From Nguyenibacter vanlangensis (GTDB lineage Bacteria > Pseudomonadota > Alphaproteobacteria > Acetobacterales > Acetobacteraceae), in contig NZ_JABXXP010000002.1 in NCBI RefSeq assembly GCF_013376155.1, positions 1 to 64,000 on the forward strand: a stretch of DNA of 64,000 nucleotides, in the 5' to 3' direction. Positions 14,302 through 63,372 of the stretch are shown one piece after another (position 1 is the stretch's first letter; each line of letters opens with the position of its first letter). The notes below the pieces were generated by a model. That model did not search any database. It was given only the letters and a program-made list of their open reading frames with translations, and was not told the DNA's origin. The translations under genes were made by a program, and so were the position numbers.

Positions 14302-14355
14302 CGCTCAGAATCGCCGCAAGCAGCGTCTCCGCTGTACGGTTGGGCAAGCCCTGGC

Positions 14356-14745: not shown

Positions 14746-14793
14746 CTGCTACTCCTCCCAGGCGGCCGTTCCGGCCACTGCAGAAACTCTGGC

Positions 14794-47175: not shown

Positions 47176-48366
47176 TCATTGATCCGTCCCACCAACCTCG
47201 TTGATGAAGGCGAGCAGGAGCGCGCCGAGCCGAGCCGGCTGTTCCTGTTGGATCCAGTGACCGGCACCGTCAATCAGCGCGATGCCACCCATCCTCGTCG
47301 CCGCCCTCGTCCTCATAAGATCGAGCGCGCCCGGCGCCGCATAGGTGCCCCAATCGCTCTTCCCGCCGATGAAGAGCGACGGGACATCGATCGCCTTGCC
47401 CGAAAACAGGCGTAACTCAGCGTTTAGGTCAGGGTCGGAAAAGACGCGATAAGCCTGCAGGGCGCCCTGAAACCCGGTGCGGCCGTACTCCTCCGTGTAC
47501 ACCCCAAGTTCCGGCTCGGTGAGCCATTTGCAGGCCTTGACCTCGGCGGCGGACGGTTCGAATGGAGCCACCGTCTCAGGCATCGTCTTGCCGAGATCCA
47601 TCACGTAATAAGTAGGCATCTGTGCAAGGTCTGCGGCGGTTCCTCCCTTCAACGGATAGGGCTTGTTTCCTGGCCAGTCAGCGCTCTTGACGTAGAAAAA
47701 TGCACGAAGAAATCTGCGTAAACCCTGAGGCGGGTGCCACATGTCGTCATTCGCCCGCCGCCCGCTGAGATATTGCTGATAATACGCTCTCGGCGGGTCC
47801 AGCGCCGCCAGCGCCGTCGCCAAATTTTGAAATTGATTGTTCGGTTGGACCGACGCTGCCTCGCTTTCCGCAGTGTTGAACGGAAACGCCGGCGGACCGG
47901 GGAACGGTGCGCTCATCAGCACCACCGAGGGAAAGACGTCAGGTCGGGCCAGCGCACAATAGGCCGCCACGGGCGAGCCGAAATCGTGCCCGACAAGCAT
48001 CGCCGTCCGTCGAAACCCCAACGCCGAAACCAGTCCGAGGGCGTCACGCGTCATATTCAAGAGGCTGAAGGGCCCAAGAGGGGCATCATAGCCGTTCACC
48101 CAACCGGTGGTGCGGCCAAAACCCCGCTGGTCGGGTGCCACGACATGGTAGCCGGCATCGGCCAGGATCGGAATCAGATGCCGCCAGCCGTAAGCCAGAT
48201 CCGGAAAGCCATGCAGAAGCAGTGCGAGCGGCCTGCCCGAGCTTTCGTAACCGGCCTCGAGAATATGGACATCGAGGCCATTGACCCCACGGATCATGCG
48301 CGAGCGGACCCCCGTGGGAAGCGTTCCCCCGCCATATGTCGGTGTCGTCAAATCAGTTCCTCCCAT
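47176..48366 (-). CDS. Epoxide hydrolase-like alpha/beta hydrolase
   Basis: 396 residues. HGFPDLAYGWRHLIPILADAGYHVVAPDQRGFGRT (HGxP oxyanion) and VGHDFGSPVAAYCALA with Asp as nucleophile mark the epoxide-hydrolase/haloalkane dehalogenase branch; His in GHWIQQEQP near the end. Insert of about 120 residues between forms a large cap. Catalyses hydrolysis of epoxides or related substrates; not shown. Divergent from the TetR gene at 48,511 with a large palindrome between them. Confidence 0.86.
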   Translation of the reverse strand: MGGTDLTTPTYGGGTLPTGVRSRMIRGVNGLDVHILEAGYESSGRPLALLLHGFPDLAYGWRHLIPILADAGYHVVAPDQRGFGRTTGWVNGYDAPLGPFSLLNMTRDALGLVSALGFRRTAMLVGHDFGSPVAAYCALARPDVFPSVVLMSAPFPGPPAFPFNTAESEAASVQPNNQFQNLATALAALDPPRAYYQQYLSGRRANDDMWHPPQGLRRFLRAFFYVKSADWPGNKPYPLKGGTAADLAQMPTYYVMDLGKTMPETVAPFEPSAAEVKACKWLTEPELGVYTEEYGRTGFQGALQAYRVFSDPDLNAELRLFSGKAIDVPSLFIGGKSDWGTYAAPGALDLMRTRAATRMGGIALIDGAGHWIQQEQPARLGALLLAFINEVGGTDQ

Positions 48367-48444
48367 GGGTTTGCGTGGCCCGGTCGCAGTGAAGCCGCAA
48401 CCAGGGCGGCCGCCCCCATCGCCAAGACGGCGCCGAACTTTTTA

Positions 48445-48477
48445 TATGGTGATTGCCATAGTATGGCGATCACCATA
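48445..48477. promoter_or_regulatory. TetR-type operator, 33-bp interrupted palindrome
   Basis: TATGGTGATTGCCATA (48445-48460) and TATGGCGATCACCATA (48462-48477) are reverse complements at 15 of 16 positions around a single G. Each half is itself a partial dyad, giving four TATGG/CCATA boxes, as expected for LmrA/QacR-like proteins binding as two dimers. It lies 33 bp before the TetR ATG and 78 bp before the hydrolase ATG. Confidence 0.78.
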
Positions 48478-48510
48478 GCGGAGTCAAGCGAAGCGTGGTA
48501 TATTCACGGC

Positions 48511-49092
48511 ATGGCACGTAAGACTGACGCACGCGCTCGCGCGATCGCCGCGGCGGAACGGCTTTTTCGCATCCAAGGCTACACTGCGACTGGATTGACC
48601 CAGATCCTTGAAGAAAGCGGTGCGCCTAAAGGATCGTTCTACTTTCACTTTCCTCGCGGAAAGACTCAGCTCGCAGAAGAAGCGATCGACCATTACATTG
48701 CATGTAGAATTGCCGTATTGCAGGACATCTCGGCGAAGACGACAGGCGATGCTCTGAATTTTGTTAATCGGATTTTCAGTACATTCGCGGCCGAAATGGT
48801 CGCCTCCGATTTCCAGTATGGATGTCTCATGCAAAATCTGGCGAACGAGCTGCCGGCGCTCGATGCCGAGTTGACCAAACGGGTAGCGCGCGGATTTGTC
48901 GATTCGACCGAGATAATTGCGGAGCATTTCAGGGGATGCGGCTTCGCTCCCGCGCGCGCATCCTCTAGCGCAGCCGCATTGGTTGCGGCCCTCGAAGGCG
49001 CGCGAACGATCGCCCGCCTGGAACGCACACCGGCTATATTCGAGGCGCTGGCGGATGTTAGTGTCCAGAGGTGGGCTGCCCCCGAGGCGTGA
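48511..49092 (+). CDS. TetR-family regulator (LmrA/YxaF type)
   Basis: 193 residues from MARKTDARARAIAAAERLFRIQGYTATGLTQILEESGAPKGSFYFHFPRGKTQL (HTH 10-55). The long open frame upstream of 48,511 is antisense to the hydrolase. The C-terminal domain (CLMQNLANELPALDAELTKRV) matches the LmrA/YxaF ligand domain. Likely represses the divergent epoxide hydrolase-like gene through the palindrome at 48,445. Confidence 0.9.
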   Translation: MARKTDARARAIAAAERLFRIQGYTATGLTQILEESGAPKGSFYFHFPRGKTQLAEEAIDHYIACRIAVLQDISAKTTGDALNFVNRIFSTFAAEMVASDFQYGCLMQNLANELPALDAELTKRVARGFVDSTEIIAEHFRGCGFAPARASSSAAALVAALEGARTIARLERTPAIFEALADVSVQRWAAPEA

Positions 49093-49306
49093 TCCGGGTC
49101 CAATGTCATCGCCTGGTGGACTCCGGTGGATACACAGGCACGCCCCTACGACCGTCACCGCCTGCGCACGGCATCGGCCATCGGCCCCTTCCATGGGCTG
49201 CCGGGACAACCGCCCGCTCCCCTGACAGAGGACGCCCACCGCTGGCTGGCTCCGAGACGCATGGAAGGCATGGTCCGGACATCGGCCGGATTTGGTTCTC
49301 GGACGT

Positions 49307-49432
49307 TCAGGTCTCGATGGTTCGGAGGAAGCGAATCAGTTCTTCGTTGAACCGTTCCGCCGCCTCCATCGGCACCATGTGTGAAGCGCCTGGAATAACG
49401 ACCATCTCGGCTCCCGGGTTGTCTCGGCCGAC
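49307..49432 (-). pseudogene. 3' end of an alpha/beta hydrolase gene
   Basis: Minus-strand codons read NPGAEMVVIPGASHMVPMEAAERFNEELIRFL before the TGA at 49307: the catalytic His loop and last helix of an alpha/beta hydrolase. The remaining ~230 residues are missing; the break point adjoins the MmyB-type fragment. Confidence 0.72.
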
Positions 49433-49724
49433 TTATGACCTCTGGGCGTATGATCGCGCCTTCGTACAGTTGCTGGAGCGCGTGCAGGCAGGGTGCAAGG
49501 AACTCGCGCACTGGTGGAAGGACCACGCCGTCCAAGCGTCCTCATCGGGAACCAAACGGCTACATCATCCAATCAACGGCCCGATCTGTTACGAATATAC
49601 GACATTCCAGGCCCACGAGGATTTTGGACTGAAATTGGCGGTTTATCTGCCGGCCACGCAAAACGCGCCGCAGCAGGATGCGCATCAGCCGCTCAGCAGA
49701 AACATGGGATTTGCCTTGGGGTGA
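49433..49724 (+). pseudogene. C-terminal fragment of an MmyB-type XRE regulator
   Basis: The frame ends at 49,724 with YDRAFVQLLERVQAGCKELAHWWKDHAVQASSSGTKRLHHPINGPICYEYTTFQ, the MmyB-like ligand-binding domain end. The HTH and first half are gone. Together with the hydrolase fragment, this shows a deletion joining two unrelated genes. A GC-rich hairpin (49,731-49,746) follows. Confidence 0.7.
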
Positions 49725-49774
49725 CGGCCGCCGCCCCAAGGGGCGGGGGGCCTTAGCGGGGTGCGTTGCGCACG

Positions 49775-50572
49775 TCAGGCGACGTGGTAGCGCGGGGCGG
49801 GCTTCGGGTTGAGGAACTTCGGGGCCAGGTCACGACGATCCTGTTCCCAACGGATCCAGGCCTCACCTTCGTGAAGGCCCGGGATGGTCACCAACTCGCC
49901 CGCGTCCAGGCCGGCCAGGGCGGCGTCGACCAGGTCGGAGGCCTGCATGGTGATTTCGGCGGTCTTCTGGGGCGCGTAGCCGGCGACGTCCCAGAACGCC
50001 GTGGCGGTCGCGCCGGGCAGCACCGTCTGGATGCGGACGCCCTTCTCGGCCAGGTCCTTCTGCAGCGAATGACCGAAGCTGAGCACGTACGATTTCGAGG
50101 CGCTGTAGACCCCGTTCAGGGCCTCCACCGCGACGCCCACCACCGACGAGATGTTGATGATGGTGCCGGCGCCGCGGGCCACGAAGGCCGGGGCGGCGGC
50201 GTAGGTCAGACGAGTCAGGGCGGTGATATTCAGGTCGATCATCGCCTCCATCTTGTCGATGTCGGCCTGCAGGATCGAGGCAACCGAGCCGACGCCGGCA
50301 TTGTTGACCAGCATGGTGATCTTGGGATCGTCGCGGAGCACCGCCTCGACTTTCGCCAGATCGGCGTGATTGTTCAGGTCGGCGACCAGCGGGGTGACCG
50401 TCACTCCGGTCTCGGCCTGCAGGCGCCCGGCGGCCGCCTGAAGCCGCTGCTCATTGCGGGCGACCAGGATCAGGTCATAGCCGCGCTTGGCGAGGCGATC
50501 GGCGTACATCGCGCCGATGCCGGTCGACGCGCCGGTAATCACGGCGACGCCTTTGGTGGATGGACTGCTCAT
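49775..50572 (-). CDS. SDR-family oxidoreductase next to a GlxA regulator
   Basis: 265 residues from the ATG at 50572 (GGAG at 8-9 nt). TGASTGIGAMYADRLAKRGYDLILVAR, NNAGVGSVAS and catalytic Y156-S-A-S-K160 all present. Closest in-window relative is the degenerate SDR at 20,811, same length and same neighbourhood of GlxA and motif sites. DltE/YdfG-like group. Divergent from the GlxA gene; the motif site A lies 71 bp before its ATG. Confidence 0.88.
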   Translation of the reverse strand: MSSPSTKGVAVITGASTGIGAMYADRLAKRGYDLILVARNEQRLQAAAGRLQAETGVTVTPLVADLNNHADLAKVEAVLRDDPKITMLVNNAGVGSVASILQADIDKMEAMIDLNITALTRLTYAAAPAFVARGAGTIINISSVVGVAVEALNGVYSASKSYVLSFGHSLQKDLAEKGVRIQTVLPGATATAFWDVAGYAPQKTAEITMQASDLVDAALAGLDAGELVTIPGLHEGEAWIRWEQDRRDLAPKFLNPKPAPRYHVA

Positions 50573-50642
50573 CGTGTTTCTCCGTCTCGACGGCTCGTGA
50601 TTGAGCCCGTGGACAGACACTAAGCTTGCAGCCAAAAGTCTC

Positions 50643-50671
50643 AAATGTCATATAAGCGGACATTTAGGACA
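50643..50671. promoter_or_regulatory. GlxA-linked operator-like motif, site A
   Basis: AAATGTCATA at 50643-50652 and AGGACA at 50666-50671 (TGTC-N18-GACA). It lies 14 bp before the GlxA-type gene ATG (50686) and 71 bp before the SDR ATG. Same relation to its regulator gene as site B at 17,608. Confidence 0.7.
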
Positions 50672-50685
50672 TAGGGCGGGACGCC

Positions 50686-51666
50686 ATGCGTGACATCGCT
50701 TTCCTCGTTTACCCCGGCTATTCGCTGATGGCGCTGGCCATGGTGGCGGGCTTCGAAGTGGCCAATTCTATGGTCGATCCCGAGCCCTACGCGTTCCACT
50801 ACGTGTCCGAAGAGGGCGGCCCGATCAAAACCTCGACTGGCCTGAAGCTGGAAACAGAGCAGTTCACGGAAAAGCCGTTCGACACGCTTGTCGTCGGCGG
50901 TGCCGCCGTGATTGCACCCTCAACCCCTGGCGTCATCGAATTCATGCGGGACGCGCCCAGGCGTCATCGGCGGATCGCAGCGGTCTGCACCGGCGCCTTC
51001 GTCCTGGCCGAGGCGGGACTCCTGGATGGGCGGCGCGCCACCACCCACTGGATTCATGCGCGCGCGCTACAGCGGACTTATCCGAAGGCGAAGATGGAAG
51101 AGGATCGCATCTTCATCAACGACGGGCCGATCTGGACGTCGGCGGGCATGACGGCCGGTGTCGACCTCGGCCTGGCGCTCATCGAGAACGATCTCGGACC
51201 CGAGATCGCCAAGGCCGTGGCGCGAAAACTGGTCATCTACCATCGTCGCGGCGGCGGGCAGTCGCAGTTCTCCACCTTGCTCGAGCTCTCGCCGAAATCG
51301 GACCGCATCCAGGCGGCCCTCGCCTACGCACGCGATAACCTTCATAAGCCCTTGACCGTCCCCGACCTTGCCGAAGCGGCCAACCTCAGCCCGCGTCAGT
51401 TCAGCCGCGCCTTCCACGCCGAAACGGGCCAGTCTCCGGCCAAGGCGATCGAGAATCTTCGGGTCGAGGGCGCGCGCAATCTCATGGAGCAAAGCCGCCA
51501 TCCGATCGACATGGTGGCCCGGCAAACCGGCTTTAGCGACCGCGACCACATGAGGAGAGCATTTCTTCGCGCTTTTGGGCAGCCGCCACAGGTTCTCCGC
51601 CGTAATGCCCGGCTGGGGTCAATCGACATCAACGACGAAGCTGACGAGCCCATCGGCGCGGTGTAA
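50686..51666 (+). CDS. GlxA-family AraC regulator with DJ-1/PfpI domain
   Basis: 326 residues. DJ-1/PfpI domain at 1-190 (DIAFLVYPGYSLMALAMVAGFEVANS; AAVCTGAFVLAEAGLLDGRRATTHW with the elbow cysteine), AraC double HTH at about 220-320 (VPDLAEAANLSPRQFSRAFHAETGQSPAKAIENLRVEGARNLMEQSRH; DRDHMRRAFLRAFGQPPQ). Nearly the same architecture and recognition helices (LSPRQFSRAF) as the gene at 17,651, consistent with both proteins reading the same DNA motif. Confidence 0.9.
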   Translation: MRDIAFLVYPGYSLMALAMVAGFEVANSMVDPEPYAFHYVSEEGGPIKTSTGLKLETEQFTEKPFDTLVVGGAAVIAPSTPGVIEFMRDAPRRHRRIAAVCTGAFVLAEAGLLDGRRATTHWIHARALQRTYPKAKMEEDRIFINDGPIWTSAGMTAGVDLGLALIENDLGPEIAKAVARKLVIYHRRGGGQSQFSTLLELSPKSDRIQAALAYARDNLHKPLTVPDLAEAANLSPRQFSRAFHAETGQSPAKAIENLRVEGARNLMEQSRHPIDMVARQTGFSDRDHMRRAFLRAFGQPPQVLRRNARLGSIDINDEADEPIGAV

Positions 51667-51768
51667 CGAACAGGTCTTCGCCCCGTTCGGATATTCCGTT
51701 CCGATATGCCGCCGAAAACCATGAATGACCGTGAAGCCGCCGTCCTGGTCGGGGACGGCGGCAATCGT

Positions 51769-52416
51769 TCAGGCCGCGAAGCTGGGGCGCCCGGCGACCT
51801 TGTCGCACCACCGGCGCGTCGCGCCATTCCCGTCCGGGATCGGGAGGGCCAACGCCTTGGCCGCGAAATCGATCGCGACGACGGCGGTAATGTCGGCCGC
51901 GCTGAACCGGTCGCCCGCGACGAACGGCGCCTCGCCGAGCCTGGTTTCCAGATCGGCATGGAAATCCGCGATCCGCTGATAGCCGCGCTCCACGATCCCC
52001 GGGATCTGCTCGTAACCGTGCGTGCCGACGATTGCGCGCCCCTTGAGCCCCGGAACCTTGTTGCGGATGGTCTCCATCACCGCCGCAAAGCCCTCAAGCT
52101 CCATCCGGCATTCCCACATCGTCACCAGCGCCTTGTCCGCGGGCGATGTGCCGAGCAACGGCGTGCCGGGATAGGCCTCTTCAAGATAACGCAGGATCGC
52201 CGGCACCTCGCCGATCGCCGTCCCGTCTTCGAGAACCAGCGTCGGGACGACCTGGCGCGGATTGATTTTGACGTAGGCTTCGGAGAACTGCTCCTTCGCG
52301 CCGAGATCGACGGGGACGCGCGAGACGCAAATTCCCTTCTCCGCGATAAAGATGCGAACGCGGCGCGAATTGGGCGAGCCGCTCGACTCATAGAGTTTCA
52401 GATGATCGTTTGACAT
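51769..52416 (-). CDS. Glutathione S-transferase
   Basis: 215 residues from MSNDHLKLYESSGSPNSRRVRIFIAEKGI. Thioredoxin-like N-domain (1-80) with SPNSRRVRIFIAEKG and the cis-Pro/glutathione region NPRQVVPTLVLEDGTAIGEVPAILRYLEEAYP; C-terminal helical domain to 215. Conjugates or reduces electrophiles with glutathione in the cytoplasm. Followed on the same strand's upstream side by an SDR gene, with a terminator between. Confidence 0.9.
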   Translation of the reverse strand: MSNDHLKLYESSGSPNSRRVRIFIAEKGICVSRVPVDLGAKEQFSEAYVKINPRQVVPTLVLEDGTAIGEVPAILRYLEEAYPGTPLLGTSPADKALVTMWECRMELEGFAAVMETIRNKVPGLKGRAIVGTHGYEQIPGIVERGYQRIADFHADLETRLGEAPFVAGDRFSAADITAVVAIDFAAKALALPIPDGNGATRRWCDKVAGRPSFAA

Positions 52417-52467
52417 GACAGCACCATTTTGAATGGGAATGAGAACGGGGATGTCGGGCATGCCAGC

Positions 52468-52494
52468 GGGGGCCGGGTTTCGACCCCGGCCCCC
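52468..52494 (-). terminator. Hairpin terminator after the SDR gene
   Basis: GGGGGCCGGG (52468-52477) pairs perfectly with CCCGGCCCCC (52485-52494) around a 7-nt loop. It lies just past the SDR stop (52501, minus strand) and before the GST start. No long T-run, but stem strength is high. Confidence 0.55.
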
Positions 52495-52500
52495 TTGGGT

Positions 52501-53247
52501 TCAGCCGGCCGACTTGCCGCCGTCGACGGTCAGGATGTGGCCGGTGACGAAGCTGGCGTCGTCCGAAGCGATGTAGAGGATCGCGCGCGCGATCTCGTCG
52601 GGCTGGCCGATCCGCTTTTGGGCGTTGAGGGTCGCCAGATAGGCCTTGACCTCCTCGCCGCCGGTGAAGCGATCGAGCATGCCGGTCTGAATCGGTCCCG
52701 GCGCCACGGCGTTGACCCGGATGCCTAGGCTGCCGACCTCCAGCGCGACCGACTTGGTCAGGCCCTCGACCGCGTGCTTGCTCGCGGCATAGATCGACGC
52801 GCCGGCGCCGCCCTCGTGCCCGAAGGTCGAGGAGATATTGACGATGCTGCCGCTGCCCTGAGCCTGCATGACGCGCAGTTCATGCTTCATGCTGAGGATC
52901 GTGCCGAGGACGTTGGTGTCGAAAGTCGCGGCATAGCTCTCGGGGGTCTGGTCGACAGCCGGGCCGGGCGTGCCTTCGGTGCCGGCGGAATTGACGGCGA
53001 TGTCCAGCCGGCCGAAGCGCCTGACGGCCTCATCGACGAGGGCACGAACGTCGTCCTCATGGCGCACATCGGCGCGGACGAATTCGGCTTCCGCGCCGAC
53101 GGCGCGCAGTTCCGCGACGAGAGCGGCCCCCGCATCGTCGTGGCGGCCGGAGGCGACGATCTTCGCCCCTTTCCCGGCGAAGGCGAAAGCGGTGGCGCGG
53201 GCGATGCCGGTGAGTGCGCCGGTGATCAGAACGACGGGCGTAGTCAT
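52501..53247 (-). CDS. SDR-family oxidoreductase (FabG-like)
   Basis: 248 residues from MTTPVVLITGALTGIARATAFAFA (ATG 53247); the ORF extends 61 codons further upstream without similarity. GALTGIAR cofactor loop (Ala instead of the third Gly), NSAGTEG, and intact Y-A-A-S-K (YAASKHAVEGLTKSVALE). C-term FVTGHILTVDGGKSAG. Divergent from the LysR gene at 53,436, the likely regulator. Confidence 0.88.
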   Translation of the reverse strand: MTTPVVLITGALTGIARATAFAFAGKGAKIVASGRHDDAGAALVAELRAVGAEAEFVRADVRHEDDVRALVDEAVRRFGRLDIAVNSAGTEGTPGPAVDQTPESYAATFDTNVLGTILSMKHELRVMQAQGSGSIVNISSTFGHEGGAGASIYAASKHAVEGLTKSVALEVGSLGIRVNAVAPGPIQTGMLDRFTGGEEVKAYLATLNAQKRIGQPDEIARAILYIASDDASFVTGHILTVDGGKSAG

Positions 53248-53435
53248 GTTATTCTCCACTCGAAATAATGTTCCAGTTGGCCATGCCATGCCTTGATTGT
53301 CTGGCTCGGCCATCGTGGATTTCGGGCTTGCGTAAACTCGGCTGGACAATCCGGCCGGTGAGAGAGGAATAGGCTTGGAATTCTTCGGGGAAAAAGACTT
53401 TGTTTCTTGGGGTCCATGCTTGTAAGGCATGGATT

Positions 53436-54329
53436 ATGGATCTTCGTCATCTCCGGTATTTCATCGCCGTCGCCGAGGAAGGCAGCCTGACCGTCGCGGC
53501 GGAGAAGCGGCTGCATACCGCGCAGCCATCCCTCAGCCGGCAGATGCGCGATCTCGAGGCCGAGCTTGGGTGCGCGCTTCTGATCCGCGGTGCAAAGGGC
53601 ATTGAACTGACCGCTGCTGGTCGCGTGTTTCTCGACCACGCGCGCGCCGTGCTCGTCCAGGTCGAAGCGACGGTCGAGGCCACGCGCCGCGCCGCAGTGC
53701 CCGCCAAGCGGTCTTTCGTCCTCGGCTTCCTGACCGGCTATGAATTCGATTGGCTACCGGCGGTCATGCGCATCATGCGTGACGAACTGCCGAATACCGA
53801 GGTCGTACTTCTCAGCCTCTCATCGCCTGACCTGGCCGAGGGATTGATGCGCGGCAAGATCGACCTCGCCTTTCTCCGGCACGAACGCAACGCGCCGGGA
53901 ATCGTCTTCACGCGATTGATCGATGAGCCGCTGATCGTGCTGATGCCAGTGGATCATCCGCTCACGGCGCGCAGTGCCGTCACCAGCGAGGACATCATCG
54001 GGGAAGAACGCGTCGGCGTTCCTCACGACAAGTCCCCGGCGCTCAGGGCGGTGACCGACGCCTACGGCGCGAAACTGGGCATCGATCTCACGCCCGACCA
54101 CGATGTCGACAACCTCGCGATGGCGATGTCGCTGGTCACCTCGACCCGCGGCATCGCCCTGATGCCGCTCTATGCGCGCAACCTGCTGCCCCCAACTGTC
54201 GTCAGCAGGCCACTCGCCGGCGTGCCGCCGACGATCGACCTGTCGCTGGGCTACAACGAAGCCAATACATCACCCCTTCTCAAGACCATCGTATCGAAGA
54301 TCGGTGATCTCAAATTCGCCAATCCTTGA
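53436..54329 (+). CDS. LysR-family transcriptional regulator
   Basis: 297 residues from MDLRHLRYFIAVAEEGSLTVAAEKRLHTAQPSLSRQMRDLEAELGCALL. LysR winged HTH 1-60, effector domain 90-290. The MDLRHLRYF opening is typical of the HcaR/BenM-like group. Starts 188 bp from the SDR start. Its stop is 72 bp from the stop of dmmB, convergent, marking the border between the SDR/GST module and the methylamine island. Confidence 0.88.
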   Translation: MDLRHLRYFIAVAEEGSLTVAAEKRLHTAQPSLSRQMRDLEAELGCALLIRGAKGIELTAAGRVFLDHARAVLVQVEATVEATRRAAVPAKRSFVLGFLTGYEFDWLPAVMRIMRDELPNTEVVLLSLSSPDLAEGLMRGKIDLAFLRHERNAPGIVFTRLIDEPLIVLMPVDHPLTARSAVTSEDIIGEERVGVPHDKSPALRAVTDAYGAKLGIDLTPDHDVDNLAMAMSLVTSTRGIALMPLYARNLLPPTVVSRPLAGVPPTIDLSLGYNEANTSPLLKTIVSKIGDLKFANP

Positions 54330-54401
54330 GCGTCGGCTTCGGCCGCCAAGGAGGCACGCCTCGGCGCGGCGTGCTGGCGTGATTTGTGGAGTTCGCCTGT
54401 G

Positions 54402-55343
54402 TCACAGATCAAGCGTCAACGTCGCCCCCATCGTGCGGGAAACGCAGGTCAGGATTTCGGTCCCAGCCATGCGCTCCGCCTTGGTCAGGACGTGGTCACG
54501 ATGGTCTGGCCGGCCATCCAAAACCCTTACGCGGCACATGCCGCACGCACCGCCGCGGCACAGGCTGGGTACATCCACGCCGGCCGCCTCCAGCGCCTCC
54601 AGCAGCGTCTGGTCCGCCCCGACCGCGATGCGCCGACCGTCGCGCGCCAGCGTGACGGTAAAGGCCGCACCGCCTGCGGCTGCGGAAAAGCGTTCAAGAT
54701 GGATCTTCATGTCTGGAAAGCCGACCTGGCGGGCACATGTGGCCACATGATCCATGAAACCGTCCGGTCCGCATGCATAAAGCCGGGTCCCGACCGGTTG
54801 CGCGGCCAGCAGCGCCGGCAGATCCAGCGCCCTTCGTCCGGCATGAATCCGCACGTCACCCTTCAACCCGTCCGGCAGCAAGTTCGCGAACGCCGCGCGC
54901 TCATCGGGACGGCAGACATGCAACAGCACATAGTCTGCCCCGATCCGCTCGAGTGCCTCTATATAGGCAAGAAATGGCGTGATCCCGATTCCACCCGAAA
55001 CCATCAGATGTCGGCGCGCAGTGCGGACGATCGGAAAAAGATTACCGATCGACGCCACGTCCACCCTCATGCCGACCATGGCGCGGTCATGCAGGAACGC
55101 CGATCCGCCTCGGGCCGACTCCTCCCGCCGGATGATCACGGTCAGGCTGCTGCCATCCTCGGCCGCATTGACGATTGAATATGGATTTTTCCACCGCCGT
55201 GTCTCGTCCCCAAAGGCCAGCACCGCATGGCTACCCGCCGAAACCGGCGGAAATGGGCGATCAGAGGCCGTCAGGACAAAACGGCGCAACGCCGGGGCGA
55301 GGACATCGATCACCGCGATCCTGGCCGCAATAGTGCCGCTCAT
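54402..55343 (-). CDS. dmmB: Dimethylamine monooxygenase reductase subunit (DmmB-like)
   Basis: 313 residues from the ATG at 55343. Phthalate dioxygenase reductase layout: flavin domain with RRWKNPYSIVNA (51-61), NAD domain with GGIGITPF (117-124) and CGPDGF (191-196), and plant-type [2Fe-2S] domain with C262, C267, C270 and C300. Passes electrons from NAD(P)H to the oxygenase that demethylates dimethylamine to methylamine. Its start overlaps the dmmA stop by 4 bp. In known systems dmmC follows it; here the next gene is a convergent LysR. Confidence 0.85.
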   Translation of the reverse strand: MSGTIAARIAVIDVLAPALRRFVLTASDRPFPPVSAGSHAVLAFGDETRRWKNPYSIVNAAEDGSSLTVIIRREESARGGSAFLHDRAMVGMRVDVASIGNLFPIVRTARRHLMVSGGIGITPFLAYIEALERIGADYVLLHVCRPDERAAFANLLPDGLKGDVRIHAGRRALDLPALLAAQPVGTRLYACGPDGFMDHVATCARQVGFPDMKIHLERFSAAAGGAAFTVTLARDGRRIAVGADQTLLEALEAAGVDVPSLCRGGACGMCRVRVLDGRPDHRDHVLTKAERMAGTEILTCVSRTMGATLTLDL

Positions 55344-55879
55344 ATGCCGTCTGCCCGTGCCTCGGCAAACGGCCCCCGCCAGACCCCCAGATAAGCCGCA
55401 AGACGACGGGAAAAATGAGGACGCACCTCCAGCTCCGCCCCGCATCCGGCACAAACCAGATTGTCGCCTGCCACCGACGGCGCAACGGTGTCGCAATGCA
55501 CGCAGATCACCGGCCGCCCCGCGCCGGCCGGCGACGCCAAGGCCATCTCCTCGTCGCACAATCCGGCCGCGGCGCCCTGTCGTGCGACAGCGCTCAGAAA
55601 CGCTTCGCCGCCCGCACCATACAGACGCAGGCCGATATGCGCGGCATGCAGTTCACAGACCAAACTCTCCAGCAATTGCGCGGCCGAACGGAAATGGACC
55701 TCTGCCGCCTCGCGACTCGGCACCGCGCGCGAATCATGTACGACGCTCCAGATCTCCACCGCCGCCGGCCTCGGCCCGCCCGGCAGCGGCAAGTCTGACC
55801 GGTCACGTACCATCAGATGACGCCGCCCACGGGAATCCCACATCAGCGACCGAAAGGGAAAGAGACTGGCGGAAGGCAC
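55340..55879 (-). CDS. dmmA: Dimethylamine monooxygenase subunit DmmA
   Basis: 179 residues from a GTG at 55879 with AGGAG 6 nt before it; an alternative TTG at 55912 has no SD. The C-terminal part has four cysteines in two pairs, C126-x-x-C129 and C143-x-x-C146, followed by RPHFSRRLAAYLGV, the hallmark of the DmmA-like C-terminal domain, probably a metal-binding ribbon. The N-terminal domain has no other known relatives. Essential but poorly understood subunit of the DMA monooxygenase. It sits between dmmD and dmmB as in known dmmDABC operons. Confidence 0.85.
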   Translation of the reverse strand: MPSASLFPFRSLMWDSRGRRHLMVRDRSDLPLPGGPRPAAVEIWSVVHDSRAVPSREAAEVHFRSAAQLLESLVCELHAAHIGLRLYGAGGEAFLSAVARQGAAAGLCDEEMALASPAGAGRPVICVHCDTVAPSVAGDNLVCAGCGAELEVRPHFSRRLAAYLGVWRGPFAEARADGI

Positions 55880-55912
55880 ATCACTCTCCTGTTGGATTTC
55901 ACGTGGCAGCAA

Positions 55913-57046
55913 TCAACCCTTCACCGTGCGCTTGTACTTCTGCGGATCGTCGAACGGCAGGGAATGGGTAACACCGCCGATCTCGACCGCGCGCGATTGA
56001 ACGGCGACGGCATGCCCGTCGATCGCGAATTCCGGCGACACGCGCGCGATCGCCATCGTCCGGCCGGCCAGCGACGAATACATCGCGCAGGTCACCACGC
56101 CGACCGTCCGACCACCCGCCACCACCGCGGCCCCAGCATCGGGCGCCTGCTGTCCCTCCAGCAGCAAACCCCAGATTCTGAACCGTTCGCGGCCCTTGGC
56201 ATGGAAGTGCGCCGGCGCCCCGCGAAATTGCGTCTTGCGCGGACTGACGGTGAAATCCAGCCCCAGCTCCCATAGCGTATCCCCCGGCATATCATCGCCC
56301 AACGGATAGATTTCCGAATTATCATAAGGATAAAACAGAAGGTAGCTCTCGACCCTCAGGTAATCCAACGCCGTGAAACTGGTCGGCACGATGCCCATCT
56401 CGCGCCCTTCCTCGACGATGCGGTCCCAGATCATGGCGGCGTCGGTCGCCTTGCAAAAGATCTCATAGCCCCGTTCGCCGGTATAGCCTGTGCGCGAAAT
56501 CGTCACTGCTGCGCCGAACAGCGTCGTCTGCATATGATGGAAGTAATTCAATTGGCGAATGCCTGGCACGTGGCGTTCCAGGTAGACCACCGCCAGTGGT
56601 CCCTGCAGCGACAGATCATGCAGGTCATCGTCGAACAGAAGCGCGGCGTTGCGCCCGACCACCGCCTGGGCCAGCATTTCATGCAGCGTTCCCGCCCCAT
56701 GCACGACCATCCATGCATTGGGCCCGGTGCGGTAGAGCACGCAATCGTCGATGAAGCGACCCGCATCGTTCAGCACCGTGGCATAGGCAGAACGGCCCGG
56801 CGTAATCTTCGCCACGTTACGCGTGGTGGCGTAATCAAGGATCGCCGACGCGTGTGGCCCCACCAGATGCAATTTTTTCAGCCCCGACACATCCATCAGC
56901 CCGGCGCGCGTGCGGATCGCGACATAATCGTCCTGCACGTCGCCGCGATATGTCCACGGCGTCCCCATGCCGTTCCAGTCTTCGAGCGCCGATCCCAGAG
57001 CCCTGTGCCGCTCGGACACGGCGCTGATACGCCAGCTTTCAGCCAT
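55913..57046 (-). CDS. dmmD: GcvT-like aminomethyltransferase (DmmD-like)
   Basis: 377 residues, both GcvT domains: folate-binding domain (RTRAGLMDVSGLKKLHLVGPHASAILDYATTRNV; TVLNDAGRFIDDCVLY; SRTGYTGERGYEIFC) and the C-terminal barrel (ARVSPEFAIDGHAVAVQSR). Position directly before dmmA marks it as DmmD, which is thought to pass the released formaldehyde unit to tetrahydrofolate. It is 66 bp after gmaS in the same operon. Could also serve N-methylglutamate dehydrogenase, which yields 5,10-methylene-THF as well. Confidence 0.82.
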   Translation of the reverse strand: MAESWRISAVSERHRALGSALEDWNGMGTPWTYRGDVQDDYVAIRTRAGLMDVSGLKKLHLVGPHASAILDYATTRNVAKITPGRSAYATVLNDAGRFIDDCVLYRTGPNAWMVVHGAGTLHEMLAQAVVGRNAALLFDDDLHDLSLQGPLAVVYLERHVPGIRQLNYFHHMQTTLFGAAVTISRTGYTGERGYEIFCKATDAAMIWDRIVEEGREMGIVPTSFTALDYLRVESYLLFYPYDNSEIYPLGDDMPGDTLWELGLDFTVSPRKTQFRGAPAHFHAKGRERFRIWGLLLEGQQAPDAGAAVVAGGRTVGVVTCAMYSSLAGRTMAIARVSPEFAIDGHAVAVQSRAVEIGGVTHSLPFDDPQKYKRTVKG

Positions 57047-57112: not shown

Positions 57113-58453
57113 TCAGCAATCCAACGTCGTCGCGCGTTCCCAGTCGGACAGATGCGCGCAATAATCCGCCCACTCTGCCTCTTTTTGCCACAGGTACGAG
57201 TCCGCCAGATCCTTTCCCAATTCTCTATGAAGAACGGTCGAGTTCCGGAATTCCCTGATTGCGTCCACTAGGTTCAAAGGCAATTTTTTCAACGCGCGGA
57301 CGCTATGCCCGTCGGTGTACATATTGATCTCCAGCGGCGCGCCGGGGTCTCGCTGGCTGCGAACGCCCTCCAATCCCGCGGCAGCCAGCCCCGCCTGCAA
57401 CAGATAAGGATTTGCCGCCCCGTCGGGCAGGCGCATCTCGAATCGCCCTCCCCCCGGCACACGAATCATGTGAGTACGGTTATCACCGGCATAGGTGACG
57501 GCGTTAGGCGCCCAGGTCGCGCCCGAGACCGTGCGCGGAGCATTGATGCGCTTGTAGGAATTCACCGTCGGATTGAATAACAGGCACAGGGCCGGCGCAT
57601 GTTCGATCAGGCCACCGACGAAATGATAACCCTCCCTGGACAGCCCCAGTCCGTACGCATCATCATCTCGGCCACGGCATATATTTTCCGCACCCTTCCA
57701 GAGCGAGATATGCGCGTGGCATCCGGTTCCAGTCAGATGGGGAAACGGCTTGGGCATGAAGGTCGCACGCAGGCCGTGCTTTTCCGCCACCGAGCGGACC
57801 AGGAACTTGAAGAACGTGTGACGGTCGGCTGTCACCAGCGCTTCGTCATATAGCCAGTTGATTTCATACTGACCGTTCGCGTCCTCATGGTCGTTCTGGT
57901 AAGGTTGCCAGCCCAGGCCCTCGATCGCATCGCAGATCTCGGTGATGACATCATAGCGTCGCATCAACGCCTGGGAATCGTAACATGGCCGCCGGGCATC
58001 GTCGTGCGGATCCGAGACCTGGGATCCATCTGGTGAAATCAGGAAAAATTCGCATTCCACTCCGGTCATCACCGTCAACCCATCGGCCGCGGCGCGGCCG
58101 AGTACCCGCTTCAATGTATTGCGTGGCCCCTGCTCAATCGGCTGGCCAGCCATCCACAGGTCACTGGCCAGCCAGGCGACATCCGGCTTCCACGGCAGCA
58201 CCGTCAGGCTGGCCGGATCGGGCATAGCCACCAGGTCGGGATCGGCGGGCGACAGGTTCAGGTTGGTGGCGAATCCCGCAAATCCAGCGCCGTTGCGCTG
58301 AATAGCGTCGATGGCGGAAATCGGTACCAGCTTGGATCGCGACACCCCGGCCAGGTCTGTAAAGGAGATGAGGAAATACCGGACATCGCGGATCTTTCCC
58401 TCGTCGAACAAGGACGCGCCGGATGACGGCCTGGACAGCGCATTGGACTTCAT
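57113..58453 (-). CDS. gmaS: Gamma-glutamylmethylamide synthetase (type III glutamine synthetase-like)
   Basis: 446 residues from the ATG at 58453. GS fold: metal ligands in GVECEFFLISPDG (E133, E135), GTGCHAHISLWKG and NPTVNSYKRINAPRTVSGATWAPNA, GGGRFEMRLPDG. Length, the missing adenylylation region and the mgs neighbours fit GmaS, which ligates methylamine to glutamate with ATP. Plain GlnT is the alternative, but adjacency to mgsABC and dmm genes favours GmaS. Seven bp after mgsC. Confidence 0.85.
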   Translation of the reverse strand: MKSNALSRPSSGASLFDEGKIRDVRYFLISFTDLAGVSRSKLVPISAIDAIQRNGAGFAGFATNLNLSPADPDLVAMPDPASLTVLPWKPDVAWLASDLWMAGQPIEQGPRNTLKRVLGRAAADGLTVMTGVECEFFLISPDGSQVSDPHDDARRPCYDSQALMRRYDVITEICDAIEGLGWQPYQNDHEDANGQYEINWLYDEALVTADRHTFFKFLVRSVAEKHGLRATFMPKPFPHLTGTGCHAHISLWKGAENICRGRDDDAYGLGLSREGYHFVGGLIEHAPALCLLFNPTVNSYKRINAPRTVSGATWAPNAVTYAGDNRTHMIRVPGGGRFEMRLPDGAANPYLLQAGLAAAGLEGVRSQRDPGAPLEINMYTDGHSVRALKKLPLNLVDAIREFRNSTVLHRELGKDLADSYLWQKEAEWADYCAHLSDWERATTLDC

Positions 58454-58460
58454 GACCGCC

Positions 58461-59831
58461 CTATCCCGCTGATTGCGGCGTCTTGCCGGGGAACCAGTCG
58501 GTACCGGCCAGCGGCACACGCGTCATCGCCGCCGCCTCCATCGTCAGCGCCACCATGTCCTCGGGTTCCAGGTTGTGCAAATGACTCTTGCCGCAGGCTC
58601 GGGCGATCGCCTGCGCCTCCATCGTCATCACCGACAGGTAATTGGCCACACGCCGTCCGCCCAGGACCGGGTCCAGCCGCGCCGCCAGCATCGGGTCCTG
58701 GGTCGTGATCCCGGCAGGATCGCGCCCCTCCTGCCAATCATCATAGGCACCCGGCACGGTTCCCAGCTTGGCATATTCTTCGGCTAGTTCAGGAGCGTTG
58801 TCGCCCAGTGCGATCAGCGCCGCCGTACCGATCGACACTGCGTCGGCACCCAGCGCAAGCGCCTTCGCCATGTCGGCTCCGGAACGAATACCTCCCGACA
58901 CGATCAGTTGGACCTGCCGATGCATTCCCAGATCCTGCAATGCCTGCACCGCCGGACGGATCGCCGACAGGATCGGCAGCCCCACATGCTCGATGAACAC
59001 GTCCTGCGTCGCGGCGGTCCCGCCCTGCATGCCGTCCAGAACGACGACATCGGCCCCGGCCTTCACCGCCAATGAAACGTCGTAATAAGGCCGACTGGCC
59101 CCGACTTTGACATAGATCGGCTTTTCCCACTTGGTGATCTCGCGCAGTTCGAGGATCTTGATTTCCAGATCGTCCGGCCCCGTCCAGTCCGGATGCCGGC
59201 AGGCCGAACGCTGATCGATCCCTTCAGGCAGATCCCGCATCTTCGCCACGCGCGGCGAAATCTTCTGCCCCAGCAGCATGCCGCCGCCACCCGGCTTCGC
59301 GCCCTGCCCCACCACGATTTCTATCGCGTCGGCACGGCGCAAATCGTCGGGATTCATGCCATAGCGCGAAGGAAGATACTGATAGACGAGGGTCTGAGAA
59401 TGTCCGCGCTCCTCCGGCGTCATACCGCCATCGCCGGTGGTGGTCGACGTGCCGACCGCGCTGGCGCCACGCCCGAGCGCCTCCTTTGCCTGGGCTGATA
59501 ATGCACCGAAAGACATGCCGGCAATCGTCACCGGCGTCTTCAGCGTGATCGGCTTCTTGGCAAAGCGCGTGCCCAGCGTCACCGACGTGTCGCAGCGTTC
59601 GCGATAGCCTTCCAGCGGATAACGTGAAATCGACGCGCCAAGGAACAGAAGATCGTCGAAATGCGGCAGTTTGCGCTTGGTCCCGGCGCCACGGATATCA
59701 TAGATACCTGTCGCCCCGGCACGCTGGATTTCCGAAATCGCATAAGGATCGAAGGTTGCCGAAAAACGTGGAACAGTACGCGGTATTTCCTGTTCAGTGC
59801 TCTGAGCGGCTCCAGAATCGCGTGTCGTCAT
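58461..59831 (-). CDS. mgsC: N-methylglutamate synthase subunit MgsC (FMN domain)
   Basis: 456 residues from MTTRDSGAAQ (ATG 59831, GAGGGG upstream). Glutamate synthase FMN-barrel: ITLKTPVTIAGMSFGALS, TTTGDGGMTPEERG, VGQGAKPGGGGMLLGQKI, KVGASRPYYDVSLAVKAGADVVVLDGMQGGTAA, LIVSGGIRSGADMAKALALGADAVSIGTAA. The usual [3Fe-4S] cysteine triplet of glutamate synthase is absent; the aligned stretch is EGRDPAGITTQDP, as is normal for Mgs/GlxD-type subunits. Makes N-methylglutamate from methylamine and glutamate. Seven bp after mgsB. Confidence 0.88.
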   Translation of the reverse strand: MTTRDSGAAQSTEQEIPRTVPRFSATFDPYAISEIQRAGATGIYDIRGAGTKRKLPHFDDLLFLGASISRYPLEGYRERCDTSVTLGTRFAKKPITLKTPVTIAGMSFGALSAQAKEALGRGASAVGTSTTTGDGGMTPEERGHSQTLVYQYLPSRYGMNPDDLRRADAIEIVVGQGAKPGGGGMLLGQKISPRVAKMRDLPEGIDQRSACRHPDWTGPDDLEIKILELREITKWEKPIYVKVGASRPYYDVSLAVKAGADVVVLDGMQGGTAATQDVFIEHVGLPILSAIRPAVQALQDLGMHRQVQLIVSGGIRSGADMAKALALGADAVSIGTAALIALGDNAPELAEEYAKLGTVPGAYDDWQEGRDPAGITTQDPMLAARLDPVLGGRRVANYLSVMTMEAQAIARACGKSHLHNLEPEDMVALTMEAAAMTRVPLAGTDWFPGKTPQSAG

Positions 59832-59838
59832 GGTCCCC

Positions 59839-60549
59839 TCAGTAGACATTCGCGTGATCGACATGGAAGTGATACAAACGCCGGGCCGAACCATAGAGCG
59901 TGAAGTCTTCGGCCGACATGTCCGCAATCCCCGCCGCTGTCAGCAACCCTTCCAAGCGCACGCGGTCCTCATGGGTCATGTCCTTGCGCTCGCAATCCGC
60001 GCCCAGATTCGTGACCGTGCCGCGCACGAACAACCTGGCCTCGTACAGGCTGTCGCCGAATGCCTCACCTGCGTCGCCGCAAACGACCAGCGCGCCGGAC
60101 TGCGCCATGAAAGCACTCATATGCCCGACATTGCCTCGCACCACGATATCGACGCCCTTCATCGAAATCCCGCAGCGTGCGCCGGCATCGCCGTCGATCA
60201 GCAGGAATCCGCCACGTGCCGTCGCTCCGGCCGCCATCGAGGCGTTACCTTTGACATGCACCCGTCCGCTCATCATGTTTTCGGCGACGCCGGGTCCGGC
60301 ATTGCCTTCGACGATCACCGTCGCGGCCTTGTTCATGCCCGCAGCGTAATAGCCGACATTGCCTTCGATGGTGACATGCACGGGCGCATCCAGCCCAACC
60401 GCAATCGCATGCTGACCACGCGGATTTTTCAGCCGGTACGGATGCTGACTGCCCCGGCGGCCGGCCTGCAGCAATGCGTTGACCTCGCGCAGCGGCTGCA
60501 CTGCAAGATCGATTATCGTGGTATCCTCACGGGTAGATGCGGAAATCAT
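59839..60549 (-). CDS. mgsB: N-methylglutamate synthase subunit MgsB (GXGXG domain)
   Basis: 236 residues, made of right-handed beta-helix turns with the glutamate-synthase gltB_C signature: IEGNVGYYAAGMNKAATVIVEGNAGPGVAENMMSGRVHVKGNASMAAGATARGGFLLIDGDAGARCGISMKGVDIVVRGNVGHMSAFM. Structural domain that shapes the ammonia/methylamine tunnel. Overlaps mgsA by 4 bp. Confidence 0.9.
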   Translation of the reverse strand: MISASTREDTTIIDLAVQPLREVNALLQAGRRGSQHPYRLKNPRGQHAIAVGLDAPVHVTIEGNVGYYAAGMNKAATVIVEGNAGPGVAENMMSGRVHVKGNASMAAGATARGGFLLIDGDAGARCGISMKGVDIVVRGNVGHMSAFMAQSGALVVCGDAGEAFGDSLYEARLFVRGTVTNLGADCERKDMTHEDRVRLEGLLTAAGIADMSAEDFTLYGSARRLYHFHVDHANVY

Positions 60550-61451
60550 GCGGCATGTTCCCAGTAATAGACCGTTTGCGGGGCCGGCTCGAAGACCCGT
60601 CCGTGTTCGACGCCGGGCAGATCGACCAGCGCGCGATATTCGGACCCGAAAGCCACGTAATCGTCGGTTTCGACCATCACCGCCGGCTTGCAGGCGATCG
60701 GATCACGCAGGACCGCAAAACCCGTCCTGGTACCCACAACGAAAGTATAGAACCCGTCCAGATCGCCCAGCGCCGCGTCCAAAGCCTCGTCCAGCCGCGC
60801 GCCCTGGCTCATGCGCCATGACAGGTAGCCGGCGGCGACCTCGGAATCGTTCTCGGTGGAAAAGCGGATACCCTCGCTCCGAAGCTTGCGGCGCAGAGCG
60901 TTGTGGTTCGACAGTGAACCGTTATGGACCAGACACTGGTCCGGCCCGGTCGAGAAAGGATGGGCGCCGGCGATGGTCACGGCCGATTCAGTCGCCATAC
61001 GGGTATGGCCGATGGCATGAGTGCCGGCCATTCCGGCCAGGCCGAAGCGCGTCGTCACGTCACGCGGCAGGCCCACGCCCTTGTAGAGTTCCATCGCCTC
61101 GCCATCCGCCACGACCACCGCGCCGAGCGCCAGAGCGGACATCACGTTGCCCACAGCGCCAGTTGCTTCGGCCGGATAGCGAATCACGACATGGTCATCC
61201 CGCCGGACGATGTCGACTACATCCCCGACCTTCACGGCCAGAGCCTCGTCCAGCCGCATGACCAGATCCGCGTCATCAGCCTCGATGCGCAGCGTCAGCT
61301 TCCGCTTACCCGGTGGTTCCGCGTTATAGATCGCGAAACCTGCACTGTCCGGCCCGCGCTCGGTCATCACATCCAACATCCGCGCCGTCAGTGTGCCCAG
61401 CTCCGGTCGCAGTTCGGGTTTTTTCAAAAACAGGCCGACAATGCCGCACAT
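60546..61451 (-). CDS. mgsA: N-methylglutamate synthase subunit MgsA (class II amidotransferase)
   Basis: 301 residues. The catalytic nucleophile is C2 (MCGIVGLFLKK), with RGPDSAGFAIYN, GHTRMATESAVTIAGAHPF and NGSLSNHNALRRKL, the full GATase_2 (PurF-like) set. In the N-methylglutamate synthase complex it supplies the amidotransferase module. First gene of the mgsABC-gmaS-dmmDAB operon; promoter region 61,452-61,573 carries the TTTTCC-N5-GGAAAA dyad. Confidence 0.9.
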   Translation of the reverse strand: MCGIVGLFLKKPELRPELGTLTARMLDVMTERGPDSAGFAIYNAEPPGKRKLTLRIEADDADLVMRLDEALAVKVGDVVDIVRRDDHVVIRYPAEATGAVGNVMSALALGAVVVADGEAMELYKGVGLPRDVTTRFGLAGMAGTHAIGHTRMATESAVTIAGAHPFSTGPDQCLVHNGSLSNHNALRRKLRSEGIRFSTENDSEVAAGYLSWRMSQGARLDEALDAALGDLDGFYTFVVGTRTGFAVLRDPIACKPAVMVETDDYVAFGSEYRALVDLPGVEHGRVFEPAPQTVYYWEHAA

Positions 61452-61573: not shown

Positions 61574-62299
61574 TCAGTCCGGCGTCCGGGCGTGCACGAT
61601 GATAGACAGATAGGTCATCGGCTTTTCCAGCAGCTTTTCCGGACCGTGCGGGGCGCTGCTGTCGAACAGCAGCGCATCACCGGGCTTGAGGTGATAATTC
61701 GCCGAACCATGCCGGTAAAGGACATGGCCCGACAGCATGTAGATCAGTTCGATCCCGGAGTGACGAAAATTGGTATAGGGATGCGCTTCCTCATGCAGGG
61801 TGATCAGATAGGGCTCCAGCACCACGTCGCCGCCCAGCAGATGACCCAATAGGCGATATTCATGCCCGACCTTGGTTCCCCGCCGTTCGATTACGACGCC
61901 CTGCCCGGCGGGAACATAGGAACAGTCGCGCTGTTCCTCCGAAGCGGAAAAAAGCTGGCTGAGCGGCACATTCAGTGCGCGCGACACCGCCTGCAGCGTC
62001 GCCAACGAGGCCGAGATCTGGCCATTTTCGATTTTCGACAACATGCTGAGCGAAATCCCGGCCGCCTGCGCGATATCCCCGCCCCGCAATTCCGCCTTGC
62101 GCCGCAACTGCCGGATCTGGTTGCCCAGCGCTTCCTCCAGCGTCATCTCGCGCACCGGGGCGGCGGTGGAACCGGTCAGCAGGTCGGCGGCGTCATCATC
62201 GTCGCGCGTCGACACGGCATCGGCCGCCGGCCGCCGCTCGGACACGGTCCGCACCCGCGTCTTGCGGGCGGGGGAAGCGGGCCGGACTGTCTTGATCAA
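61574..62299 (-). CDS. XRE-family regulator with C-terminal cupin
   Basis: 241 residues. After a disordered Arg/Asp-rich N-terminus (1-50), HTH_3 at about 60-115 (IRQLRRKAELRGGDIAQAAGISLSMLSKIENGQISASLATLQAVSRALNVPLSQLF), then a cupin_2 barrel (HEYRLLGHLLGGDVVLEPYLITLHEEAHPYTNFRHSGIELIYMLSGHVLYRHG ... LFDSSAPHGPEKL). Same group as PuuR and SutR. Directly upstream of mgsA on the same strand; probable regulator of the methylamine operon. Confidence 0.9.
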   Translation of the reverse strand: MIKTVRPASPARKTRVRTVSERRPAADAVSTRDDDDAADLLTGSTAAPVREMTLEEALGNQIRQLRRKAELRGGDIAQAAGISLSMLSKIENGQISASLATLQAVSRALNVPLSQLFSASEEQRDCSYVPAGQGVVIERRGTKVGHEYRLLGHLLGGDVVLEPYLITLHEEAHPYTNFRHSGIELIYMLSGHVLYRHGSANYHLKPGDALLFDSSAPHGPEKLLEKPMTYLSIIVHARTPD

Positions 62300-62337: not shown

Positions 62338-63336
62338 TTATAGGTCCATCACCCCGCCGTGGGAAACCACATTCACTTCGGGTTCCAGCGTCGGCAGGAT
62401 CCCGCGCAGCACCGGCACCACTTCGGCATGCAGCGCCGCGCGCAGCGTGGCCGACAAGTCTCGCGGCAGCGCGCCGAATTCCCGTTCACGCGCCACGATC
62501 GTCAGCACTCGCCCCATCTTCGGCCCAGGCAGCGGCGCCCAGCGCAAGCCGGTCAGATCCAGCCCGCATTCGAACAAGCACAGCGACGTTGTGATCGCCA
62601 TCGCGCCCTGGCGACAGGCGGTCAGCACGCCATAGGGGGCATCGAACTCCATGCTTACCGGCAACTCCAACCGCAACCGGCGCAGATAACGCTCGATCTC
62701 CTGCCCCGTCCGCGAGCGCAGCGAAAACCGTACAAACGGGCAGACCTGGCTCAACGCCGCCAGGTCGGCCGGTGTCTTGGGCACCGGCCGGTCTGCGGGC
62801 AGCAACAACAGATAGGGTTCCCGCGCCAGCGGAAAACGCTCCAATCCATTGACGTCGGCGAAGTCGCTGACCCCTACCACGATGTCCATCTGCCGACCAA
62901 ACAGGGCCGACGCATGGCTTTCCGTCAAGCCCGAATGAATGACGGCCTGGACCGTCCGTTCCGCCAGAAAACGCGACAGCGGCGGCAGGACCGCACGCAT
63001 CAGACTGTCGACGATACCGACACGGATCAGCGAAACCCGCCCGGCATGCACCTCGCGCAGCCGGTTGGCCGCCTGTCGGGCCTCCGACGTCAGGGCCAGT
63101 GCACTCTGCCGCAAAACTGCGCCCGCCGCGGTCAGCGCCAGCGGACGCACCCCTCGATCGAACAGGCGTACACCGCCTTTCGCCTCGATTTCGCCGATCA
63201 CCTGAGAAACGGCGGGCTGGCTGACACCCAGATGGCGCGCCGCCGCCGCCATACTGCCATGCTCGCAGACCGCGACAAAAACCGACAGCGCTTGCAGATC
63301 GAAGGGAAGCGGTCGCTCGCCCGCTGGTCGCGCCAT
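62338..63336 (-). CDS. LysR-family regulator of the methylamine cluster
   Basis: 332 residues from MARPAGERPLPFDLQALSVFVAVCEHGSMAAAARHLGVSQPAVSQVIGEIEAKGGVRLFDRGVRPLALTAAG. Winged HTH 15-75, effector domain 100-310. Divergent from the SoxB-like gene with a CCATAA/TTATGG dyad between, so it probably controls mgd expression. Runs in the same direction as the XRE-cupin gene, 38 bp apart. Confidence 0.88.
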   Translation of the reverse strand: MARPAGERPLPFDLQALSVFVAVCEHGSMAAAARHLGVSQPAVSQVIGEIEAKGGVRLFDRGVRPLALTAAGAVLRQSALALTSEARQAANRLREVHAGRVSLIRVGIVDSLMRAVLPPLSRFLAERTVQAVIHSGLTESHASALFGRQMDIVVGVSDFADVNGLERFPLAREPYLLLLPADRPVPKTPADLAALSQVCPFVRFSLRSRTGQEIERYLRRLRLELPVSMEFDAPYGVLTACRQGAMAITTSLCLFECGLDLTGLRWAPLPGPKMGRVLTIVAREREFGALPRDLSATLRAALHAEVVPVLRGILPTLEPEVNVVSHGGVMDL

Positions 63337-63372
63337 GGAAAGCACCTGTCGATGCGTCATCTCATTGCATCC

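Follow-up and report, generated by a model that had tools for sequence, protein, structure and literature searches.

A rare split of the dimethylamine monooxygenase genes: dmmC lies apart from dmmDAB in what appears to be one methylated-amine island of an acetic acid bacterium

Does a dimethylamine monooxygenase operon that stops after dmmB still belong to a complete enzyme? The window, the whole 64,000-nucleotide stretch of DNA analysed here, is part of contig C2 (which ends at 66242) of a draft genome (G000; 3.92 Mb in 1307 contigs, 87.6% complete), and it carries dmmD, dmmA and dmmB in that order on the minus strand at 54402-57046. A sequence-only reading of the window had given this order and these gene families, and the profile matches bear out both. 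It was also right that dmmC is missing behind dmmB, where a 72-bp spacer (54330-54401) is followed by the end of a convergent, plus-strand LysR gene with its stop at 54329; the window contains no PF11927 match. Three explanations had been offered for this absence: that dmmC is elsewhere, that it was lost by a rearrangement in the spacer, or that the complex works with a different partner. The features of this part of the window are as follows.

53436..54329, plus strand: LysR-family regulator (PF03466/PF00126), predicted start, inside a 98% match to the same-species genome G436; species-backbone flank, outside the island
54349..54350: junction of the methylated-amine island edge with the backbone; G436 homology stops at 54349
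54354..54374: 10-bp inverted repeat 3' of dmmB from a repeat search, a possible (weak) hairpin
54402..55343, minus strand: dmmB, reductase/ferredoxin subunit of dimethylamine monooxygenase (Fer2, 8.8e-17; 58% to the operonic DmmB of Gluconacetobacter tumulisoli)
55340..55912, minus strand: dmmA subunit (PF22289, 1.2e-18; NF041259 above cut-off)
55913..57046, minus strand: dmmD, GcvT-like tetrahydrofolate-binding protein (PF01571, 3.1e-58; 78% to G. tumulisoli DmmD)
57113..58453, minus strand: gmaS-like gene, glutamine synthetase family (TIGR03105, 630 bits, cut-off 469.6), predicted start
58461..59831, minus strand: mgsC, glutamate-synthase-like (PF01645, 4.9e-90; 92% to the G. tumulisoli protein), predicted start
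59839..60549, minus strand: mgsB, GXGXG protein (PF01493, 7.1e-13)
60546..61451, minus strand: mgsA, glutamine amidotransferase-like (PF13522/PF13537)
61574..62299, minus strand: XRE/cupin regulator (PF01381, PF07883), also adjoining mgs in genomes G427 and G439
62338..63360, minus strand: second LysR regulator (lysR2), also adjoining mgs in G009, G427 and G439

The assignments of the three dmm genes in the window are correct. DmmA matches PF22289 (DmmA-like_C) at 67.2 bits, against a cut-off of 27.4, and NF041259 at 86.4 bits, against 60, while DmmD matches the GCV_T and GCV_T_C families. DmmB carries the 2Fe-2S domain (Fer2, 61.3 bits); its matches to reductase-type profiles fall below their cut-offs, and no NCBIfam model was found above its cut-off for this protein. 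The dmmB frame runs from a predicted ATG that overlaps the dmmA stop by 4 bp, and its end by the junction is intact, since its alignment with the DmmB of G. tumulisoli LMG 27802 (G009, of the same genus; dmm loci L035/L080) spans residues 6-312 of 312. The names gmaS, mgsA, mgsB, mgsC and mgd are assigned from gene context; so named, the neighbouring gmaS-mgsCBA genes are consistent with methylamine metabolism.

A profile search of the whole draft genome, which the sequence-only reading had proposed, found one gene of PF11927 (DUF3445), the haem-dependent oxidative N-demethylase alpha family. It lies on contig C8 (loci L040/L041), with the following features.

C8:16470-17507, minus strand: dmmC (PF11927, 230 bits, cut-off 25), full-length and open from a predicted ATG
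C8:17538-20033: TonB-dependent receptor gene, directly 5' of dmmC
C8, behind dmmC: luxR gene (PF00196)
C8: tmm, trimethylamine monooxygenase (NCBIfam, 795.5 bits, cut-off 675)
C8: tdm, trimethylamine N-oxide demethylase (NCBIfam, 1154.6 bits, cut-off 1100)
C8: ammonium transporter gene (amt), folD and purU
C8: mgdD, soxG-like
C8, right end: C-terminal part of mgdC, soxA-like

The stop of the TonB-receptor gene precedes the dmmC ATG by 30 nt, with a GGAG motif before the ATG. The luxR product matched no NCBIfam model at 1e-10.

By its sequence, the C8 protein is an orthologous DmmC, so that the catalytic subunit is encoded in this genome and dmmC is, as one of the three explanations had it, elsewhere. 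It shares 69% identity over 339 residues with the operonic DmmC of G. tumulisoli and 61% with the DmmC of genome G051, and its only strong match among solved structures is the haem-dependent oxidative N-demethylase of Pseudomonas mendocina (5LTE; 408 bits, 3e-121, residues 12-329). Identity falls at 45-46% to the divergent second set of G009 and to the sole set of G010; these divergent DmmABC-like sets of Gluconacetobacter relatives lie at L036 (G009:C9, 10539-12824) and L037 (G010:C2). For comparison, a GTDB scan that took eight aligned DmmC proteins as its query (A2, made without L064, which contains X and a gap, and without the divergent L036/L037) retained the best 80 of its 505 confirmed relatives, and 397 sampled genomes of the family, a sample of a larger group, were searched for DmmA. 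These two sets overlap (L080 is G009 and L106 is G427), and trees and conservation counts were made without L106, a duplicate of L160, and without rows that covered no more than 75% of the query. In the tree of 87 DmmC proteins, whose bootstrap had not settled, the C8 protein groups with seven acetic-acid-bacterial rows (support 100/100) and is sister to them by a weak split (92/68); in the tree of 84 DmmB proteins, the DmmB of the window groups with the same seven rows (100) and is firmly their sister (98). This agreement on the clade suggests that the window dmmB and the C8 dmmC most likely share one history. In 22 genomes from the same family or class there is a PF11927 gene but no DmmA hit; the DUF3445 proteins of the three compared (L007, L010 and L013, one from the same family and two from the same class) are 25-31% identical to the C8 DmmC, versus 69% for that of G. 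tumulisoli. An unrelated DUF3445 paralogue as a replacement is ruled out by identity and tree, and the different partner once envisaged for the complex is unneeded, given that the single such protein found, on C8, is a DmmC orthologue.

The most fitting reading of contigs C8 and C2 is that each carries part of a single methylated-amine island. The end of C2 falls inside the N-terminal part of mgdC: along the soxA/mgdC profile (996 positions) the right end of C2 covers 4-400 and the right end of C8 covers 475-995, and against the full MgdC of a relative C2 gives residues 1-404 and C8 begins near 466. We infer the join, rather than read it, across a gap of ~60-70 codons. The mgdA, mgdC and mgdD products score below the cut-offs of the families that they match, sarcosine oxidase beta, alpha and gamma respectively, the mgdA and mgdC genes being cut by contig or fetch ends, and mgdB was assigned by eye. 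An N-terminal piece on contig C99 was considered as partner of the C8 mgdC end and ruled out; it is a 99% match to a core gene of G436, and the G436 copy has its own C-terminus, 46% like that of C8. The joined run gmaS-mgs-xre-lysR2 / mgdC-mgdD-purU-folD lies on a single contig in Komagataeibacter swingsii (G427) and likewise in G439, which bears the same genus number. The order of the island would accordingly be, on the left, LysR; dmmB, dmmA, dmmD, gmaS, mgsCBA, xre, lysR2; mgdABC up to the gap; and, on the right, mgdD, purU, folD, amt; tmm, tdm; TonB receptor, dmmC, luxR and, further on, gene X; asparaginase. On this map dmmB and dmmC would stand ~24 kb apart (11.8 kb on C2, 12.0 kb on C8 and ~0.2 kb missing). 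The G+C contents, 61.5% for C8 and 62.0% for the window, are near-equal.

The outer edges of the island can be located in G436, a genome that is of the same species by its label and complete in one contig. It matches the window at 46823-54349 with 98% identity, after which homology stops within the 72-bp gap. Across the site (L061, G436:C1:3915554-3924529), G436 continues past 54349 with 466 bp and then with sequence matching C8:8461-8241 (98%) and C8:718-1 (99%), so that both outer edges meet at one place in G436, 466 bp apart. The spacer thus contains a real junction, as had been proposed for 54,330-54,401, but it is an island edge at which the gene was separated, not lost. G436 gave no DmmA hit, and the whole island is absent from its locus. 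At least part of this difference looks like a deletion in G436, where the asparaginase gene, complete on C8, is reduced to its 3' end. The 466 bp occur as one full copy in G436, with short partial matches elsewhere in G436 and in G000 and no match in G009 or G004; an insertion-sequence scar at the site was considered and rejected. A search of 54250-54500 of the window for direct repeats at the junction found none, and one short inverted repeat.

These edges bear on whether the split is an artefact of assembly or binning, with C2 chimeric at 54349 or C8 derived from another organism. The draft is fragmented, and the island genes are absent at the locus in a complete genome of the same species, as such an artefact would allow. 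However, both edges map independently to within 466 bp of one another in G436 at 98-99% identity, a convergence that a random chimera would not give; moreover, mgdC is common to both contig ends, the two contigs agree in G+C, and the trees of DmmB and DmmC place this genome in the same clade. A chimeric contig is unlikely given the two edges, and an artefact of either kind appears very improbable. An operon without dmmC would also be expected had the gene been lost and had DmmA and DmmB come to serve another oxygenase, but the PF11927 gene on C8, with its identity as DmmC in the same draft genome, rules out the loss of dmmC, and this explanation can hardly be credited unless the C8 protein is inactive.

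Very probably, then, the gene set for dimethylamine monooxygenase is complete and its operon is split, with subunits made from two transcripts and assembled in trans. The sequences themselves show that the genes are present and orthologous and, across one small assembly gap, where they lie. By analogy with known relatives, from which the electron path, assembly, activity and regulation are all drawn, dmmDAB would be expressed behind gmaS-mgs at one island edge, and dmmC behind the TonB receptor, near luxR, tmm and tdm. DmmA and DmmB would hand electrons to DmmC, the haem-type catalytic subunit, which would demethylate dimethylamine; the formaldehyde would be captured on tetrahydrofolate by DmmD, and the methylamine would be processed by GmaS, Mgs and Mgd. 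Against this reading, the part of the genome beyond the 87.6% in the draft could hold a second, intact operon.

Alternatively, selection on the detached DmmC may have weakened or changed since the separation, leaving the protein to drift or to acquire another function, in which case the strain may be a poor user of dimethylamine or unable to use it. In 86 other DmmCs, 124 columns reach a conservation of 95% or more; the C8 protein differs at 9 of them, the seven acetic-acid-bacterial relatives at 0 to 2, and all others at a median of 1. In this count the rows used for comparison also entered into the choice of columns, and with gaps and X counted one other row also reached 9; when each row was left out in turn, with gaps and X not counted, the C8 protein still had the most deviations of the 87 (9; next 6). 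The window DmmB and DmmD are normal in this respect, deviating at 2 of 50 and 0 of 44 conserved columns, and the terminal branches point the same way, at 0.5 for the C8 DmmC versus 0.21 (L080) and 0.25 (L160), and at 0.38 for the window DmmB versus 0.46 and 0.48. Either the function of the detached gene or the selection acting on it may therefore have been weakened or altered; nevertheless, the frame is full-length and open, the match to 5LTE reaches 408 bits over residues 12-329, and 115 of the 124 conserved columns are kept, and we regard drift as unlikely. Separation might also have given DmmC, then made together with a TonB-dependent receptor near tmm, tdm and luxR, its own control and selection, under which it diverged from an otherwise rigid DmmC pattern and changed its role, toward another N-methyl substrate or a dimethylamine step tuned apart from the reductase subunits; this seems rather improbable. 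We retain the complete but split gene set as the preferred reading.

The separation of dmmB from dmmC is rare, and the arrangement was not seen in the relatives examined. Every one of the 80 GTDB loci (the best 80 of 505) has dmmB immediately before dmmC, at a distance of 54 to 198 nt. DmmA was found in 16 of the 397 sampled family genomes, G000 included, and in the other 15 dmmC follows dmmB every time (G010 counted by its divergent set only, and the dmmC of G235 containing X and a gap). Adjacency of dmmC to dmmB, which gives way here to ~24 kb, is a feature of gene order and not of the enzyme. The gene dmmA is more mobile: nine of these best 80 loci have no dmmA within 400 nt upstream of dmmB, four of them (L102, L132, L135, L158) with dmmB starting within 12 bases of a contig end and five (L106, L123, L129, L146, L149) not at or near a contig end. 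In Paraburkholderia/Caballeronia (L123, L129, L146, L149), dmmA stands ~2 kb downstream of dmmC and not upstream of dmmB. The case is a real and rare operon split, but mostly an ordinary one, in that the enzyme is known, all its subunits are encoded and one gene has parted within its own island. Subunit genes that are adjacent in the 80 best GTDB loci and 15 family genomes can evidently part, apparently with both kept, which makes the split a test case for whether operon co-location matters to complex assembly; a search for dmmDABC as a single operon would wrongly score this organism as unable to degrade dimethylamine. A literature search, limited in coverage and weak as evidence of absence, returned nothing on Gluconacetobacter and dmmDABC together, and among the matches listed none was, by its title, about genes for methylated amines in acetic acid bacteria.

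Characterized systems share the proteins but not the layout. In Ruegeria pomeroyi (PMC5520151), all four proteins belong to the families found here and the N-methylglutamate pathway likewise lies downstream, with dmmDABC as one operon, whereas here dmmDAB follows gmaS-mgs and dmmC lies ~24 kb off on the other strand. There, dmmABC alone gives dimethylamine demethylation in Escherichia coli, and dmmD is needed for growth on methylated amines, although its disruption may affect downstream genes (PMC5520151). In Paracoccus aminophilus (PMC4543880), tdm, tmm and the dmm genes lie near each other, as here, but with dmmC within the operon; dmm mutants are impaired on dimethylamine, and the four single-gene mutants do not grow on it as sole carbon/energy source, while another passage of PMC4543880, like PMC5520151, treats dmmD as auxiliary.

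Closer relatives indicate that acetic acid bacteria broke the dmm set in two ways, by detaching dmmC here and dmmA in Komagataeibacter. In G. tumulisoli (L035/L080), gmaS-mgs is likewise followed by dmmDAB, but dmmC comes directly after dmmB, and then gene X. In K. swingsii (G427:C47; L160/L161), a TonB receptor precedes dmmD-dmmB-dmmC (L160, 9133-12370) and dmmA (L161, 14481-14972) sits after mgd-purU-folD, ~22 kb from dmmD, so that dmmB and dmmC remain together, unlike here; G439 (L164, L074) has the same split, with dmmA after folD ~22 kb from dmmD-dmmB-dmmC. The TonB receptors before dmmD-dmmB-dmmC in these two genomes are 43-46% identical to the receptor before dmmC here (46% for K. swingsii), and their placement directly before dmm genes hints at import of a source of methylated amines, or of haem or iron. 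The L160 receptor gene of K. swingsii occupies 12737-14929.

As to the direction of change, tdm-tmm-dmmDABC occur together in Acetobacter (L079, L081, L082) and in the family genomes G349 and G424 (L071, L073), an arrangement which suggests that dmmC stayed with tdm, tmm and luxR while dmmDAB moved to gmaS. Genes related to the luxR on the dmmC side adjoin tdm in L065 and L079. Since G. tumulisoli has all four dmm genes at gmaS, it is equally allowed that dmmC moved, or that two copies underwent opposite losses. In L079 (Acetobacter papayae), the tdm matches at 2484-4644 fall in three pieces, possibly through frameshifts or sequence errors.
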